Of a stretch of 64,000 nt of DNA, positions 45,235 to 54,192 are shown one piece after another. The translations under genes and the position numbers were made by a program. Positions within the stretch are counted from its first letter, which is position 1. Every line of letters starts with the position of its first letter. Origin of the DNA: Opitutia bacterium UBA7350 (GTDB taxonomy: Bacteria > Verrucomicrobiota > Verrucomicrobiia > Opitutales > Coraliomargaritaceae); the NCBI GenBank assembly GCA_949524905.1, contig CATINC010000005.1:62001-126000 (forward strand). The letters are read 5' to 3'. The notes under the pieces were generated by a model that was given only the letters and a program-made list of their open reading frames with translations, was not told where the DNA came from and did not search any database.

Positions 45235-46380
45235 ATGGCACAACACTTCGCCGGACGACGCAGCGCTTTTCTACGATTACCGCCAGCAGGTGTTTTTATT
45301 TGTTTTGTCGTCATCACCCTGACCTTGCTTGGCTTGGTGGCACTTTTCAGTGCGTCCCAAGCGATGCATGACAATCCTGCGGTGCTTTTGCGCAAGCAAA
45401 TCATCTGGCTGGTGATTGCCAGCCTTGCGGGTGTATTTACCATGTTCATTAATTTGGATGCGTTGCGTCCCTTGAGCTACTTTCTTGCGGGCGTAGCGAT
45501 TTTTGCCCTTGTGGCGGTTTTGATTCCCGGAATCGGAGTAACGGTTAACGGAGCGCAACGCTGGATTGATTTTGGACCGATGCGTCTACAGGTTTCTGAA
45601 ATCGGGAAGCTAGGTCTTCTTTTTGCGCTTGCGCATTACCTTTCAAACAACAAGCGATATTTGGATCAGTTTGTCCGTGGCTTTGTCGTACCTTGTGGGA
45701 TCGTTGGCATTTTCTGTAGTCTGATTTTGTTGGAGCCCGATTTTGGGACAACCTTTCTTTGTGGGGCAGTTGGAGGCGTGATGCTTTTTTTAGCGGGGAT
45801 GCGCATGAAATTTTTGATACCGGCAACGGTGAGTGCGCTCACAGGATTTGCAATTTTAGTTTATAATGATCCAGTGCGCTTGGCACGTATTACCTCCTTT
45901 CTCAATGTTGAGGGTAATCGCAGCGACAGTGCCTATCAATTATGGCAAGGTATCCTTGCCTTTGGTGCCGGCGGATTACAAGGCGTTGGGCTCGGTTCTG
46001 GCCGTCAGCAGATGTCGTTTCTCCCAGAAGCGCATACCGATTTTATTTTTTCAATTATTGGCGAGGAATTAGGATTTTTTTTCACCGCTGGGGTGGTGGT
46101 GTTATTCATGATGCTTTTCTTTGTGGGCATTCTTCAACTTAAGCGTGCTCCGGGATTATATCACTATCTCCTCGTGATGGGGGCCTTGCTCTTTATTACA
46201 TTTCAGGCCTTAATAAATATTGGGGTGGTGACGGGATGTTTGCCGACAAAAGGTATTTCACTTCCCTTTATATCTTATGGTGGATCCAACCTCGTATTTA
46301 TGTTTGTCCTTACGGGCATAATCTTAAATGGATTTCGGACTTGGGAATTTTCCACCCTACAACCCAAACGCGATCTATGA
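45235..46380 (+). CDS. ftsW: SEDS-family division protein FtsW
   Basis: Ten or so TM segments; NGAQRWIDFGPMRLQVSEIGKL, GVGLGSGRQQMSFLPEAHTDFIFSIIGEELGF, LPFISYGGSNL. Confidence 0.95.
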   Translation: MAQHFAGRRSAFLRLPPAGVFICFVVITLTLLGLVALFSASQAMHDNPAVLLRKQIIWLVIASLAGVFTMFINLDALRPLSYFLAGVAIFALVAVLIPGIGVTVNGAQRWIDFGPMRLQVSEIGKLGLLFALAHYLSNNKRYLDQFVRGFVVPCGIVGIFCSLILLEPDFGTTFLCGAVGGVMLFLAGMRMKFLIPATVSALTGFAILVYNDPVRLARITSFLNVEGNRSDSAYQLWQGILAFGAGGLQGVGLGSGRQQMSFLPEAHTDFIFSIIGEELGFFFTAGVVVLFMMLFFVGILQLKRAPGLYHYLLVMGALLFITFQALINIGVVTGCLPTKGISLPFISYGGSNLVFMFVLTGIILNGFRTWEFSTLQPKRDL

Positions 46381-47501
46381 GCACAATTCTAATTGCTTGT
46401 GGTGGCACGGGTGGACACCTCGCCCCAGGGATCGCACTCGCAGAGGTCTTCGTTAAAGAAGGGCACCGTTGTTTATTATTGGTTAGCCAGAAGACCGTGG
46501 ATTCAGCCCTCATTCGCAAGTATGAATCCTTAGATTTTATTGCGATTCCGGGGCAGGGATTTTCAGGTGGTATTTGGCAAGGCTTGAGTGCCTTGTGGAG
46601 TTTATATCGAAGCTTACGGGTGGTACTGCGTTTGATCCGGCAAGAGAGCCCGGACTTAGTTTTTCTTTTAGGGGGTTTTCTTTCGGCTGGGCCAGGTCTG
46701 GCGGCACGCTTAGGAGGGATACCGGTGGTTTTACATGAGGCAAATTCCGCACCTGGGCGAGTTACGCGATGGCTCGCACCCTTAGCTGAAAGAGTGTATC
46801 TACCTGCCGGGTTGTCTTTGGAAAATGTCGCTTCTGAAAAACTGCGTCACCCTGGCTATCCCGTTCGCCAAGAGATCGCTGCCATACCAATAGCATGTGC
46901 TCGGGCGTCCTTAAGGCTAGACTTAGAGACAAAACTTCTGGTTGTTATTGGCGGGAGTCAGGGAGCTCGTGCCCTTAATGACTGGGCTGAAGAAAATTTT
47001 GAATCCTTAGCAGAATCAGGCATTTCTATTTTTTGCGTGAGCGGATTGCAACAGGCAGAGGCACAAAAAACCACCCTCCAAAACCGAGCAGGCAAGCTAT
47101 GCTCTTTTACACGAGTTGAATTTACCGACCAGATGGCAACGGTATTATCTGCGGCTGACTTAGTGGTTTCTCGGGCTGGTGCAGGCAGTATTGCAGAACT
47201 CGCCGCTTGTCGAAGACCAGCGGTGCTGATTCCTTACCCCTATGCGGCGGATGACCACCAGACCGCAAACGCACTTGCTCTAGAGGCAACTGGAGGAGGG
47301 CACATGTTAGCACAGAGCCAGCTCGGCTTGCTTGCAGTAAAGGTAAAGAACTTAATTTTTGATATCGAGGCATTGAAGCAGATGCAAGGAGCCCTTGAAA
47401 AAATAGACCCTACAAACACCGCAAAAGATATTGCGCAGGACTTGCTCACCTTGACCAGAGCGAGGCAGACGTCTAAAACAAAAAGTGGAAATGAAACTTG
47501 A
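46377..47501 (+). CDS. murG: UDP-GlcNAc:MurNAc-pentapeptide GlcNAc transferase
   Basis: MSTILIACGGTGGHLAPGIALAEVF, VVIGGSQGARALND, VVSRAGAGSIAELAACRRPAVLIPYPYAADDHQ. Confidence 0.96.
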   Translation: MSTILIACGGTGGHLAPGIALAEVFVKEGHRCLLLVSQKTVDSALIRKYESLDFIAIPGQGFSGGIWQGLSALWSLYRSLRVVLRLIRQESPDLVFLLGGFLSAGPGLAARLGGIPVVLHEANSAPGRVTRWLAPLAERVYLPAGLSLENVASEKLRHPGYPVRQEIAAIPIACARASLRLDLETKLLVVIGGSQGARALNDWAEENFESLAESGISIFCVSGLQQAEAQKTTLQNRAGKLCSFTRVEFTDQMATVLSAADLVVSRAGAGSIAELAACRRPAVLIPYPYAADDHQTANALALEATGGGHMLAQSQLGLLAVKVKNLIFDIEALKQMQGALEKIDPTNTAKDIAQDLLTLTRARQTSKTKSGNET

Positions 47502-49719
47502 GGAAAAAAGTTATTTTTTTGCTGGAGTCGGCGGCGTGGGGATGACTCCACTGGCAGCTTGGCTTGCTGCGGCGGGCTGTGAGGTATGTGGGCATGATGA
47601 TTATCTGCAAACGGAAGCACGGACCTTACTGGAATCTGCCGGAGTGAAGATCCGTGATTTACTTTTTAGTGAGGACATCTCTAGTTTCGATGTTTTGGTA
47701 TACACAAGTGCCTTGGCAGAAGACCACCCTTCATTAGCAGCAGCAAAAGCAGGTGGTTTGGAGCTTTTACGCCGCGGCGAATTATTGGCAAAAATCGCTA
47801 AAGGCCGCCATTTGCTCGCCGTTGTTGGGAGTCACGGAAAAACAACTACTTCCGGTTTAATTGCGCACGGCTTGATTCAAAACGGAATGAAGGCTGATTT
47901 CATAATAGGTGGATTTTTTGCCAATCAAACCCACTTGCCCTACGCATTTGGGGGACATGAATGGTTGATTGCGGAAGTGGATGAAAGCGATGGCACCATT
48001 GAAGCCTTTGAGCCTGAAGTGAGCTTAGTGCTAAATCTTGATTGGGATCATGCCGATCAATACTCAGATCAGCAGTCACTGGAGTTTGCCTTTACGGCTT
48101 TGTTGGAGCGCACTCGCAAATGCGTACTAGCTCCGGATTCGCTGCGAGCACAATTACCGGAGGTTTTAGGACAAAAGATCATAACGTGGCCGCTACCAGA
48201 TGATGGTATGAATACTCATAATATTACAGCGGCAACTGCTGCTTTGGAATATATACAAGGCGCAAAGCTAGACCTCGCGCCTGAGCATAACTTTCCCGGT
48301 ATGGCACGTCGCCAAGACTGCTTGCACCACGATGTGATGCTTTCGGTTTACGAAGACTACGCCCACCACCCAACGGAAATTGAATCTCTCATTAAGCATA
48401 TGAGAGATGCGGAGCCGGATCGTCGATTGGTAGTGGTATTTCAAGCACACCGTTATTCACGAACACGTCAGTTCAAAGACGGAATTGCACGAGCATTGGG
48501 CAATGCCGATCAGGCTTTCCTTCTGCCAATCTATGGGGCTTATGAAACGGAGCGAGCGGGTGGTGAGATGTTAAATTTAACAATGGCTTTTGGGGCGTCT
48601 GCCCCCACGGTTTTGCCGATGAACCTTCGCGGTATGGAAAAGCTTGCGATGGCTTTAGTGGATGAACCCTCGAGCTTAGTTTTCGCAGGAGCGGGCGACA
48701 TTCATCATTTTGCCAATGCATTTGTAGCCCAGGTGCGCTCAGGCTTTGACTCTCAGGCTGCCTGGAAGCATTATATGCAGGACCGTGTTTCAAAAACTTG
48801 TATTTTGGAGACCGATGTGACCCTCGCTGCAAAGACTACCATGCGAGTGGGAGGTGCGGCGGAATTTTATGCTGAGCCAGAAAATTTAAGTGATTTACAC
48901 GCCTTGTTGCGGGGCGCTCATTTATTTGAACAAAGCGTTTTTTCGCTTGGGAGAGGTTCAAATATTATTGTACCCGACGAGGGTTTTTCTGGTTTGGTGA
49001 TTCGTTTTAATCGCGGTCTTTGGAAAACCACGCTAAACTTGGGTGGGGGACGTTTGTGGGTTGGTGCAGGCGTCCGTTTGAAAGAGGTTTGTGGACTGGC
49101 CGCTAAAGTAGGTTTGTCAGGCTTTGAATTTCTGGAAGGCATTCCTGGGTCGGTAGGCGGATCCCTGCGGATGAATGCGGGTGCTATGGGGAGTTGGATT
49201 TTTGACGTTGTTGAGCGAGTGCAATTACTAGAAGCCGATGGGAGGGTACGGGATATGCCCCAGGAGGCTTTTCATTTCGGATATCGCAAAGTAGAGGAGA
49301 TCAGTACTGGAATTGCATTAGGCGCGATTTTGCGCAGCCCAGAGAAAGAGCAAGGAGCTGCTATTCGCGAACGAATGGATAGTTATGCTTCTGTCCGTAA
49401 GGCCAGCCAACCGCGGGAGCCGAGTGCAGGGTGTATTTTTAAAAATCCGGATGGGGATTATGCCGGTAAGTTAATTGATACAAATGGCTTAAAAGGTTTA
49501 CGCGTTGGAGGTGCCGAGGTCTCAGAAGTGCATGGCAATTTTATTGTAAACAAGGGCTCTGCTACTGCTAAAGATATCATCGAATTGGTGCGCAAAATTC
49601 GAGCGACTATATATCAAAGCTCTGGAAAACTACTGGAACCAGAAGTCTTATTACTCGGACAGAATTGGGATGAGGTGCTCGGCCATCCAGTTGAAGTGGA
49701 GGGCTGTAAAGATGAATAA
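47485..49719 (+). CDS. Bifunctional MurC-MurB fusion (UDP-MurNAc:L-Ala ligase + UDP-MurNAc dehydrogenase)
   Basis: MurC: VVGSHGKTTTSGLIAHGL, EVDESDGT, EDYAHHPTEI, FQAHRYSRTRQF; MurB: TTMRVGGAAEFYAEP, SLGRGSNIIVPDEGF, GIPGSVGGSLRMNAGAMG, EPSAGCIFKNP. Confidence 0.95.
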   Translation: MEMKLEEKSYFFAGVGGVGMTPLAAWLAAAGCEVCGHDDYLQTEARTLLESAGVKIRDLLFSEDISSFDVLVYTSALAEDHPSLAAAKAGGLELLRRGELLAKIAKGRHLLAVVGSHGKTTTSGLIAHGLIQNGMKADFIIGGFFANQTHLPYAFGGHEWLIAEVDESDGTIEAFEPEVSLVLNLDWDHADQYSDQQSLEFAFTALLERTRKCVLAPDSLRAQLPEVLGQKIITWPLPDDGMNTHNITAATAALEYIQGAKLDLAPEHNFPGMARRQDCLHHDVMLSVYEDYAHHPTEIESLIKHMRDAEPDRRLVVVFQAHRYSRTRQFKDGIARALGNADQAFLLPIYGAYETERAGGEMLNLTMAFGASAPTVLPMNLRGMEKLAMALVDEPSSLVFAGAGDIHHFANAFVAQVRSGFDSQAAWKHYMQDRVSKTCILETDVTLAAKTTMRVGGAAEFYAEPENLSDLHALLRGAHLFEQSVFSLGRGSNIIVPDEGFSGLVIRFNRGLWKTTLNLGGGRLWVGAGVRLKEVCGLAAKVGLSGFEFLEGIPGSVGGSLRMNAGAMGSWIFDVVERVQLLEADGRVRDMPQEAFHFGYRKVEEISTGIALGAILRSPEKEQGAAIRERMDSYASVRKASQPREPSAGCIFKNPDGDYAGKLIDTNGLKGLRVGGAEVSEVHGNFIVNKGSATAKDIIELVRKIRATIYQSSGKLLEPEVLLLGQNWDEVLGHPVEVEGCKDE

Positions 49720-50656
49720 CACTCATGCAGGGCGAATTTCGGTGCTCTACGGCGGTATTGGCGAGGAGCGGGCAGTTTCGCTACAAAGCGGACCTGCAAT
49801 TGCACAAGCCTTGGAATCGCATTATTCGGTTGAAATGGTGGAGTTAAATACGGCGGTTTTGCCAAAAGATTTGCACCTGCAAAGTTCTGTAGTGTTCCCT
49901 GCATTGCACGGTAGCTTTGGGGAGGATGGTAGTTTACAAGCTGCTCTAGAGGCGGCGGGAATTGCTTACTGTGGGAGCGATGCCGCTGCCAGTCGTTTGT
50001 GTATGGCTAAAGACCGCACCAAAGTAGTCGCGCGGGATTTGGGGATTGCGACGCCAGAAGCAATTCATTTTGAAGCAGGGGAAAACCCATTGGCTGATAA
50101 TGTAATTGAGATCTTGGGAAATGATCTGGTGGTCAAGCCTGCTAATATGGGGAGTAGTGTCGGGCTTCACTTCGCTAATAGTCGCTCGGCTTTGGGCCTT
50201 GCACTCTCTCAAGTGCATACCGGAGAATGGTTGATTGAACAACGTATCCACGGCCGAGAATTGACCGTGGGACTTCTTGAGGGTCAAGCAATGGGCGTGG
50301 TAGAAGTCGTCAGTGTCAGTGGGGTCTATGATTACGAAGCCAAGTATATTGCCGGCAGTACAAAATACCTCTGTCCGGCAGCCTTGGATGCCACCTTAGA
50401 GGCAGAAATTAAGACCGCTTCGGAGGCTCTATTTAATGCTTGTGGTTGCCGTGATTTCGCGCGGATTGATTTTCTGTTAGATGGCGATATGCCTTATTTT
50501 CTAGAGGTTAATACTTTGCCAGGTCTGACTGCTTCAAGTTTATTGCCAAAGAGTGCGGCATGTGAGGGCTTGGGTTTTGAAGCATTAGCACAAGCGTTGG
50601 TGCGCGGAGGCTGTGAGCGTTATGCCTCAGAAAAAAATGGAGGCGCGCAGGCATGA
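49712..50656 (+). CDS. ddl: D-alanine--D-alanine ligase
   Basis: FPALHGSFGEDGSLQAALEAAGIAYCGSD, VKPANMGSSVG, FARIDFLLDGDMPYFLEVNTLPGLT. Confidence 0.95.
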   Translation: MNNTHAGRISVLYGGIGEERAVSLQSGPAIAQALESHYSVEMVELNTAVLPKDLHLQSSVVFPALHGSFGEDGSLQAALEAAGIAYCGSDAAASRLCMAKDRTKVVARDLGIATPEAIHFEAGENPLADNVIEILGNDLVVKPANMGSSVGLHFANSRSALGLALSQVHTGEWLIEQRIHGRELTVGLLEGQAMGVVEVVSVSGVYDYEAKYIAGSTKYLCPAALDATLEAEIKTASEALFNACGCRDFARIDFLLDGDMPYFLEVNTLPGLTASSLLPKSAACEGLGFEALAQALVRGGCERYASEKNGGAQA

Positions 50657-51600
50657 AGCGTCAGCGCCGAGATTGGGGTGTTAGCAGCGCGCGCGGGCAA
50701 CAGAGTTGGCATGCCTTGCGTGAGCAAACCCACAAAACACCGGGTGTGAAAAGCCTCACCGTTAAGCGCCGGCAAATTTTTCTATACTTAAAGGGCGCCC
50801 TGCTGGGAATCGTTGGTATTGTTATTATTGGCAGTGGCGCCCTTTGGGTCGGTTCTCAACTACAAGAAGATCGTTCAAAAGGAGCCTTGGCTGACTCCAA
50901 ACCGCTTGCATCCATCCGATACAAGACCAACGGGGTATTGAGTCACGCGCGCTTGGGAAGCATGATCAGCGTATCGACGGGAACCCGTTTAATCGATGTC
51001 GATATTCACGCTATCAAGCGCGACTTAGAGAGCATCGGACAGGTGAAGCAGGCGACGGTTGAGCGAGATTTGCCCGACACCTTGCGCATCCAATTACAAG
51101 AGCACAAGCCGATACTCCGTATGGTCATCGAGAATGCCGCAGGTGAAAAAAAACTACGCATGGTTTCACGCACGGGTGAGGTTTTTGAAGCTTTGGATCA
51201 GCCTCCAGATTTTGTACGAACCTTGCCCTACCTTGGACCATTCCAACATAACGATGGGAGTTATTTCCCTCTAGGCGACATGGAGCAGGTGGCAAATTTG
51301 CTGAACACCTGCGAAGTGAATTACCCCAATGAGTTTCAAAAATGGAACGTGGTCTTACTTACACGCTATCGAGGGCAACCGGGTCTCCCTGGAGAGGTTA
51401 TAGAGGTGCGCACAAAAGAGGGTGATTCAGTGGAGCGTTTGATCTTCAGCGCGAGCTTTGATTTTGAGAAGCAATTGGATCGATTACGCTATATTCGAGA
51501 AGTCTCCTCCGCGATGGGTGATCCACTTGTGCGGGCGGATTTCTCCATGAACAACAAGGCCGTCGTAGAATTCAAAAGTGGCCGCAATAAACTTTTATAA
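50653..51600 (+). CDS. ftsQ: FtsQ/DivIB-type POTRA division protein
   Basis: N-terminal basic region and TM, POTRA-like TRLIDVDIHAIKRDLESIGQVKQATVERDLPDTLRIQLQEHKPI; between ddl and ftsA. Confidence 0.85.
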   Translation: MKRQRRDWGVSSARGQQSWHALREQTHKTPGVKSLTVKRRQIFLYLKGALLGIVGIVIIGSGALWVGSQLQEDRSKGALADSKPLASIRYKTNGVLSHARLGSMISVSTGTRLIDVDIHAIKRDLESIGQVKQATVERDLPDTLRIQLQEHKPILRMVIENAAGEKKLRMVSRTGEVFEALDQPPDFVRTLPYLGPFQHNDGSYFPLGDMEQVANLLNTCEVNYPNEFQKWNVVLLTRYRGQPGLPGEVIEVRTKEGDSVERLIFSASFDFEKQLDRLRYIREVSSAMGDPLVRADFSMNNKAVVEFKSGRNKLL

Positions 51601-51697: not shown

Positions 51698-52924
51698 ATG
51701 AGCTCGCCCCGTATTGTTGCAGCTGTGGAAATTGGAACCAGTAAAATTGCAGTTTTACTGGGTCGACTCGATGGGAGCACAAAGGTGGACATTGTGGGTC
51801 ACAGCCTTTCCACCTCTAAGGGCGTAAAAAAGGGTGAAATCCGTGATCTGCGAGCCGTTAGTGATTGCGTACATTCGGCGCTCAGTTCTGCTGCTGGTAA
51901 GTACCATATCGATGAAGTCTATCTCGCACTGAGCGGGCGTCATCTAGAAGGTAATTTTAATGTGGGAACGGCGACCGTGAGCGATGCTGCAAGTCGAGTG
52001 CGTCAGATCGATGTCAATCAAGCGATCGCAGACGCTAAGCGACGTGAACTTCCAGAAAATCGCAGTTATATACATCACATCCAAAATCCATTTTGTCTCG
52101 ATGGTAAAGTAGTGGATAGTCCCCTCGAACAACAAGGACAACGTCTGGAAGTCGGTTACTGGTCGGTTCATGCAGATACCCCGCTCATACGAAATTATCT
52201 GCGCGTTATCGGTGGTTATGGCATGGAGGTTAACGACATCGTAATTTCGAGTCTGGCATCCGGAAATATTCTTGCTGAAGAAGTGGAGAAGGATGCCGGG
52301 GTTTTGGTGATCGATATTGGCGGTGGTACCACAGATTGGGTTCTCTATCGCGGGGGCTTTGTGGTCCGTACGGGAGTGGTTTCGGTTGGAGGAGATCACA
52401 TTACTAACGATTTATGTGCAGGGCTGCGCACGGGTCAAAAACGTGCGGAACAAATTAAGGTAGAACACGGACGTGCCTTTCATGATCGCGAAGATCGCAA
52501 TGAAAAAATCTGGCTAGTTGGGGACTATACCATTGGTGATAAAGAGTTTCCAAAATCTGCTGCGACACAAATTATCGAGGCACGGGTAACAGAAATCTTT
52601 GAAATCGTGAAGGCGGAAATCAAGAAAGCAGATTTTTACAAAGTCGATGATATTGCCAGTGGAGTGATTTTAACAGGCGGGACAGCGCGACTGGAGGGAC
52701 TGGAACAGGTTGCGGAACGTGTATTGGGCTTGTCGGTACGCTTGGCGGATTTTGAGCCCGGGTTAGATGCGGAATTACGCAGGCCGGAATATACTACGGT
52801 TATCGGGGTATTAGATTATGCCCGAGTCGATCAAGACCGAGTCGATCAGTCGAATGATGGTATGGGTATTCTCAATGGTCTGATGAATGTCCTTGGGATT
52901 CAACGAAAGGAGGCGAGTTACTGA
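51698..52924 (+). CDS. ftsA: Cell division actin homologue FtsA
   Basis: AAVEIGTSKIAVLLG, VLVIDIGGGTTDWVLYRGGFVVRTGVVSVGGDHITNDL, VILTGGTARLEGL. Confidence 0.94.
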   Translation: MSSPRIVAAVEIGTSKIAVLLGRLDGSTKVDIVGHSLSTSKGVKKGEIRDLRAVSDCVHSALSSAAGKYHIDEVYLALSGRHLEGNFNVGTATVSDAASRVRQIDVNQAIADAKRRELPENRSYIHHIQNPFCLDGKVVDSPLEQQGQRLEVGYWSVHADTPLIRNYLRVIGGYGMEVNDIVISSLASGNILAEEVEKDAGVLVIDIGGGTTDWVLYRGGFVVRTGVVSVGGDHITNDLCAGLRTGQKRAEQIKVEHGRAFHDREDRNEKIWLVGDYTIGDKEFPKSAATQIIEARVTEIFEIVKAEIKKADFYKVDDIASGVILTGGTARLEGLEQVAERVLGLSVRLADFEPGLDAELRRPEYTTVIGVLDYARVDQDRVDQSNDGMGILNGLMNVLGIQRKEASY

Positions 52925-54192
52925 TGGAAAATGTGCCCCATAATGGAACCGAGTTGGAGGCCTCTATTCGTGTACGGGTTATTGGGCTAGGCGGTGGCGG
53001 TTCAAACGTGTTGGCTGGCATTGATCGGGATCGTTATCCACACGTTGAATACCTTGCCGTCAATACGGACTCACAAGCCCTAGCACATTCTCCCCTCACG
53101 CATAAAGTACTCTTGGGTCAAAATATAACGCGTGGACTTGGCGCAGGTGGAGATTTCGAAATTGGCCGCCAGGTAGTAGAAGCGGATCGCGCAGAACTGG
53201 AGGCTTTGGTTGCAGAGGTTGATTTATTAATATTAGTCACTGGATTAGGCGGTGGTACCGGAACTGCCGCGGCCCTTCTATTGGCAGAATTAGCAACCCA
53301 AACCGAGGCCACCGTCCTGGCTTTTACGACTCAACCATTCACCTTTGAAGGTGCTCGCCGAAGGGAGATATCTGATGCTGCTTTGGCAGATTTACGCGAA
53401 AAGGTGCACGGACTGATCCCCGTCCCGAATGATTTATTGCTACAAGAAACAGAGGAAGACGATACAGCGCTATCAGCTTTTGCAGTCGCGGATAAATGGA
53501 TCGGGAAGGGAATACACTCTTTGTGTGCGATGCTTTTTGAAACGGGAATTATCAACCAAGATTTCAGTGCTCTGCGCAATCTGCTCCAAAGACGCGGCGG
53601 GAAAACGATATTTGCTATTGGTGCCGGCAAGGATGAGGATTTTGTTAAAGACGCCCTCAGTCAACTTTGCGACTGTCCCTTACTGCACGCAACCGAACGA
53701 CCCAGTCGGATGGATCGCATTTTGCTGCATTTGGTGGTGGGTTCGGAAATGGGTTTGGCTAAAATACAAGAGGTGGTCACCAGCATCAGTGAGCAGTTTG
53801 ATTCTAGTAAGGAAATTATAGTAGGTGCGGTAATGGATTCTCGCTTTGCAAAATCACTGGAAATTTGTCTCATCGCAAAAGTGGAAATCGAGCCCACTGC
53901 CACGACCTCAGATAATGCAGGTTTGCGCAATGGTCGTGAACCCATGGAGACCATCGGTAGCCTTGGCTTGGAAAACGCCAATATGGAAGCGAATCCAAAG
54001 CCCGTGGTTCACGTATCAAAATTGATCGGTAAAAAGAAAAAAGAAGCCAATGAAGATCAGGATGAATTCCTCTTTGTAGATTTGGAAGCACAGCGCGGGT
54101 ATTTTGAGCAAACGGATCAAAATTTATATAATAATGAAGATCTGGATGTTCCCACTTTCCTCAGGCGAGGGATCAAGATAAAACTAAAATGA
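52924..54192 (+). CDS. ftsZ: Divergent tubulin homologue FtsZ
   Basis: VNTDSQAL, RGLGAGGDFEIGRQ, GLGGGTGTAAA, PFTFEGARRREISDAALADLREKVHGLIPVPND, C-terminal LDVPTFLRR; T7 loop GIINQDFSA. Confidence 0.92.
   Translation: MENVPHNGTELEASIRVRVIGLGGGGSNVLAGIDRDRYPHVEYLAVNTDSQALAHSPLTHKVLLGQNITRGLGAGGDFEIGRQVVEADRAELEALVAEVDLLILVTGLGGGTGTAAALLLAELATQTEATVLAFTTQPFTFEGARRREISDAALADLREKVHGLIPVPNDLLLQETEEDDTALSAFAVADKWIGKGIHSLCAMLFETGIINQDFSALRNLLQRRGGKTIFAIGAGKDEDFVKDALSQLCDCPLLHATERPSRMDRILLHLVVGSEMGLAKIQEVVTSISEQFDSSKEIIVGAVMDSRFAKSLEICLIAKVEIEPTATTSDNAGLRNGREPMETIGSLGLENANMEANPKPVVHVSKLIGKKKKEANEDQDEFLFVDLEAQRGYFEQTDQNLYNNEDLDVPTFLRRGIKIKLK

Follow-up and report, generated by a model that had tools for sequence, protein, structure and literature searches.

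An Opitutales FtsZ without the second acidic residue of the T7 loop: a candidate slow GTPase

Here, we report that the FtsZ encoded in the window (the whole 64,000-nucleotide stretch of DNA that was analysed) carries alanine at the position of the second acid of the T7 loop, i.e., Asp212 of E. coli FtsZ, and that this acid is missing in 136 of 147 FtsZ sequences of the order Opitutales, where Ser, Thr or Ala mostly stands instead. Taken as one joint explanation, towards which we lean by a modest degree, this gene encodes the one genuine division FtsZ of its Opitutales host, a natural and adapted protein whose sequence predicts low GTPase activity and slow dynamics.

The ftsZ gene (positions 52924 to 54192; forward strand, as are all features below) encodes a protein of 422 amino acids, and its translation comprises a GTPase domain, the FtsZ C-terminal domain, a disordered linker and the conserved C-terminal peptide EDLDVPTFLRRGIKIKLK. 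It is the final gene of an ftsW-murG-murCB-ddl-ftsQ-ftsA-ftsZ (dcw) cluster. Directly upstream is ftsA (51698 to 52924; 408 amino acids; TIGR01174, 286.9 bits with a cut-off of 175.85), whose stop codon overlaps the ftsZ start, preceded by ftsQ with its POTRA domain (50653 to 51600; PF08478) and by ftsW, murG, a murC-murB fusion and ddl (45235 to 50656), the latter four named from their ORF translations. The MurC-MurB fusion is 744 amino acids long (47485-49719); such a fusion has also been described in Verrucomicrobium spinosum (PMC4803751).

The protein scores above the gathering thresholds of both Pfam domains (PF00091, 107.9 bits; PF12327, 36.7 bits). It is below the NCBIfam ftsZ equivalog cut-off (TIGR00065, 228.2 vs 295.2 bits), which is an annotation threshold, and its orthology is based on tree, synteny and single copy; the same cut-off is passed by 19 of 156 genomes of the order and by all 13 matching control genomes. 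An AlphaFold2 model (pLDDT 80.6) has the FtsZ fold, and its PDB matches are FtsZ structures, with target-normalised TM scores of 0.84-0.93 for nearly all of the best 50. The tail, EDLDVPTFLRR, contains an FtsA-binding peptide of the D-[IV]-P-x-[FY]-L-R type. By alignment, the T2 loop N47-T-D49-S-Q51 (53062 to 53076) retains E. coli N43, D45 and Q47, which belong to the Mg2+/K+ site (PMC8936486); the T3 loop G75-G-D77 (53146 to 53154) places Asp77 at E. coli position 73; the tubulin signature reads GGGTGTA (53248 to 53268; GGGTGTG in E. coli); and Arg146 (53359 to 53361) corresponds to R142, the gamma-phosphate arginine (PMC8936486). Altered guanine contacts, suspected from ADKW replacing ANDV, were rejected, since the residue that touches the base (E. 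coli position 186) is Asp, the same as in B. subtilis. Trp192, conserved in the clade of this FtsZ, is a clade mark.

The T7 loop (53545-53571, gga att atc aac caa gat ttc agt gct) translates in frame as G-I-I-N-Q-D-F-S-A and aligns without gaps to E. coli FtsZ, with Asn211 at N207, Asp213 at D209 and Ala216 (codon GCT, 53569 to 53571) at D212, the D213 of S. aureus. Against the hydrolysis motif NxDxx[D/E], the loop NQDFSA keeps the Asn and the first Asp and lacks the final acid, and every other counterpart of the S. aureus catalytic-site residues is retained. The absence of this acid had been noted in the sequence-only reading and is borne out by the DNA and the alignment; the comparison with relatives proposed there found the loss to be clade-wide. 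A second species of the genus (L002/L213, an independent assembly with 67% identity) also has Ala, in GVINQDFGA, and none of the 34 FtsZ of the family, one of them from a two-contig genome (G020), is acidic here.

For the order as a whole, relatives' FtsZ were fetched and aligned, giving 147 sequences, 107 of them from 16 better-conserved families. Position 212 is Thr in 52, Ser in 45, Ala in 19, His in 6, Met in 4, Tyr in 4, another residue in 6 and acidic in 11. Within the better-conserved families the acid is missing in 102/107, and the neighbouring functional positions hold: D209 is acidic in 104/107, R142 is Arg in 101/107, N207 is Asn in 98/107 and D45 is Asp in 105/107. Among 80 named relatives (Cerasicoccus, Coraliomargarita, Opitutus and others), no acid was found in any readable T7 loop (73-74 read). 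The acid is present in 42/50 FtsZ from other orders of the class, and chance is ruled out by this difference. FtsZ is normally better conserved than FtsA. Over 119 loci of these relatives the median identity of the FtsZ core is 45% and that of FtsA 44%, indicating that FtsZ is unusually variable relative to FtsA in these bacteria. Two local variants were seen. Cerasicoccus FtsZ (L032-L035, f20 g54) has R142H alongside D212M, and these two residues are in contact through water in S. aureus FtsZ. One genus of another family (f8 g39; L063, L067, L302) has the loop GLINVNFST, i.e., D209N with D212T, in an otherwise conserved FtsZ.

In an FtsZ tree computed with the T7 columns removed, the sequences of the order cluster together (SH-aLRT 100), joined by a single long-branch sequence from another order (L168). 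The nearest relatives in the class, f29 and f31, carry the complete NxDxxD loop (GLINIDFADLR/GLINRDFNDLR). The simplest account, given this grouping and these outgroups, is a single loss, probably close to the root of the order and before it radiated; the direction of change is taken from the outgroups because the parsimony counts are unrooted. The acid was probably regained at least twice, in parts of f24 (g32/g63) and in f9; in f24, g32 has Asp again and its neighbour g57 has Thr. These regains indicate that the rest of the GTP site is still compatible with an acid. Other orders of the class more often have the reverse state, D212 kept with D209 lost (31/49, and 5/49 for the opposite pattern); L139, L142 and L145, with loops such as GLIRIGFDDL, have lost N207 together with D209. 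Both T7 acids are missing in only 9/228 sequences, among them the NVNFST genus above. This distribution suggests that at least one of the two T7 acids must remain, and it stays a suggestion because the mutual-exclusion test on the tree yielded 7 independent pairs, too few (median p 0.5).

What the two acids do is seen in S. aureus filament structures (PMC8936486). Three residues, D210, D213 and G72, keep the catalytic water in place; D210 (E. coli D209) swings during catalysis and places the attacking water, D213 (E. coli D212) is static and is linked by a further water to R143 of the adjacent subunit, and D46, Q48 and N208 arrange the loop together with Mg2+ and K+. The final acid had been taken in the sequence-only reading as the residue that drives hydrolysis; this stands insofar as it holds the water and fails insofar as the swinging acid is D209, which is kept. 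The T7 loop in the window has therefore lost one of two acids and not the whole catalytic centre. The accompanying claim that mutants at this position are GTPase-impaired agrees with the E. coli and B. subtilis literature. E. coli D212G has about tenfold lower GTPase (<1% of the wild-type value elsewhere) and still assembles static rings (PMC7320174), D212A is a much slower GTPase that can still build filaments where cells divide (PMC4383033), and B. subtilis D213A treadmills slowly in thick rings (PMC8079713). Cells with D212A and co-expressed FtsA finished extra septa with wild-type FtsZ also there (PMC4383033), and E. coli D212G fails to complement unless a suppressor appears, which happens at ~1e-6 (PMC5405962). 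In S. aureus FtsZ, D213N abolishes assembly (PMC8936486). The abolished assembly and the need for a suppressor imply that the natural protein must differ elsewhere or be adapted.

Under the explanation that we favour, the ancestor of the order would have lost D212 once while Asp213 (D209) and Arg146 (R142) stayed. The window FtsZ would bind GTP and form filaments as normal, and its T7 loop would give the GTP site of the neighbouring subunit one acid, not two. GTPase would still work, running on D209 and R142, and would be intrinsically slow; filaments would then be long-lived and treadmilling slow, and the role of the ring may shift towards scaffolding FtsA and wall synthesis. A broader version seems to us rather improbable, i.e., that FtsZ filaments throughout the order hydrolyse GTP too slowly for treadmilling, which would then not be the driver of septum synthesis there, and that T7 loops eroded repeatedly in the phylum, each lineage usually keeping one acid and some then losing FtsZ.

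The main rival to a slow GTPase is that the acid has been functionally replaced, so that Ser/Thr at the site, the retained D209 with R142, or the T3-loop acid of the GTP-carrying subunit (Asp77) keeps the water network and GTPase is near normal; we regard this as possible, if on the unlikely side. D209 and R142 are indeed strongly retained, and the presence of Ser or Thr in 97/147 suggests that the site is perhaps not free to vary and may still bind water, so that rates in relatives could be close to normal. However, the genus of the window has Ala, Cerasicoccus has Met and other relatives have Gly/His/Tyr. As for the T3 loop, an acid at position 73 occurs in 132/147 of the order, but also in 72/80 of the other orders and classes of the phylum, where it is near-universal (Asn in E. 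coli and B. subtilis); it predates the loss and is found in M. tuberculosis FtsZ with its intact T7 loop, so it is not a specific replacement. A scan for order-specific conserved acids returned several, all outside the active site and none in the T7 or T3 loops.

That FtsZ is instead decaying, largely dispensable in the order and on its way to an FtsZ-less state, is improbable. It would draw on the badly eroded sites of f4, f22, f26 and parts of f16/f19, and on four families with small genomes (f7, f25, f27, f28, e.g., G049, G067, G071, G075; 0.7-1.1 Mb), in which no FtsZ was matched by three probes (the window protein, TIGR00065 and a profile built from divergent FtsZ of the order) and FtsA had no match above its cut-off. 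These four families apparently divide independently of FtsZ and FtsA, as judged from their gene content. The near-closed genomes G119 (one contig, 2.3 Mb) and G077 (3 contigs, 2.7 Mb) of f16 g24 likewise gave no FtsZ and no FtsA over cut-off; other members of f16 g24 carry a divergent FtsZ. Decay, however, would not explain why the family of the window and the main families conserve the gene cluster, the FtsA-binding tail and all the remaining residues of the active site.

It had also been proposed from the sequence that a second FtsZ or tubulin completes the active site, as alpha-tubulin does for beta-tubulin. There is precedent, since beta-tubulin and archaeal AtubA have Lys at this T7 position and leave the partner's GTP unhydrolysed (PMC13394414). 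A heterodimer would call for two paralogues, one or both of which still have the T7 acid, and the genome of the window (99.97% complete, 17-contig draft assembly) was found to hold one FtsZ/tubulin gene. One FtsZ gene per genome is also the rule in the order by our FtsZ-family search. The heterodimer idea thus fails for this genome, and its loophole, a partner beyond profile detection, is a very slim one. G109 is the only genome of the order with two full FtsZ copies; its second ftsA-ftsZ pair (L059, G109:C5:60380-61915) is attributable to transfer or contamination because the FtsZ of this pair falls with family f30, which belongs to another order (SH-aLRT 100). Finally, a base or assembly error at Ala216, for which one could point to the draft state of the assembly, has practically no chance of being the cause, because the independent assembly of the genus has the same residue and the acid is absent throughout the family, G020 included, and across nearly the whole order.

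Most work on whether bacterial division depends on rapid GTP hydrolysis and on treadmilling has used defective laboratory alleles. The Opitutales are a natural experiment on the amount of GTP hydrolysis that division needs, a clade with cultured members (Cerasicoccus, Coraliomargarita) from which the acid has apparently been missing since the ancestor of the order, with regain in a few lineages. The rates of these FtsZ would tell apart what D209 and D212 each contribute.

The Opitutales protein is a variant of a known family, seen by comparing position 212 within the phylum; no report of the T7 loss in Opitutales was found in the open-access literature, including papers on FtsZ of Verrucomicrobia (PMC1845146, PMC5147048, PMC12283558). 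With the canonical FtsZ of E. coli, B. subtilis and S. aureus it shares the fold, the nucleotide site, the T2 residues, R142, N207, D209, the C-terminal FtsA-binding peptide and the place after ftsA in the dcw cluster; it differs in the absence of D212 and in its profile score (228 bits vs the NCBIfam cut-off of 295). E. coli D212G (ftsZ2), D212A and B. subtilis D213A change the same residue to Gly or Ala with the other catalytic residues intact, but these laboratory alleles impair division or depend on suppressors or wild-type FtsZ, whereas the state described here is natural, ancestral to the order and carried by the sole gene copy. Beta-tubulin and AtubA likewise have no acid at this T7 position, but they form heterodimers in which only one of the two sites must hydrolyse, while the filament of the window FtsZ must be homomeric. 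A functional likeness is to the FtsZ of Candidatus Thiosymbion oneisti (PMC8953583), a natural division FtsZ with low GTPase, measured there and predicted here; its catalytic and GTP-binding residues are conserved, whereas the window FtsZ lacks the D212 acid.
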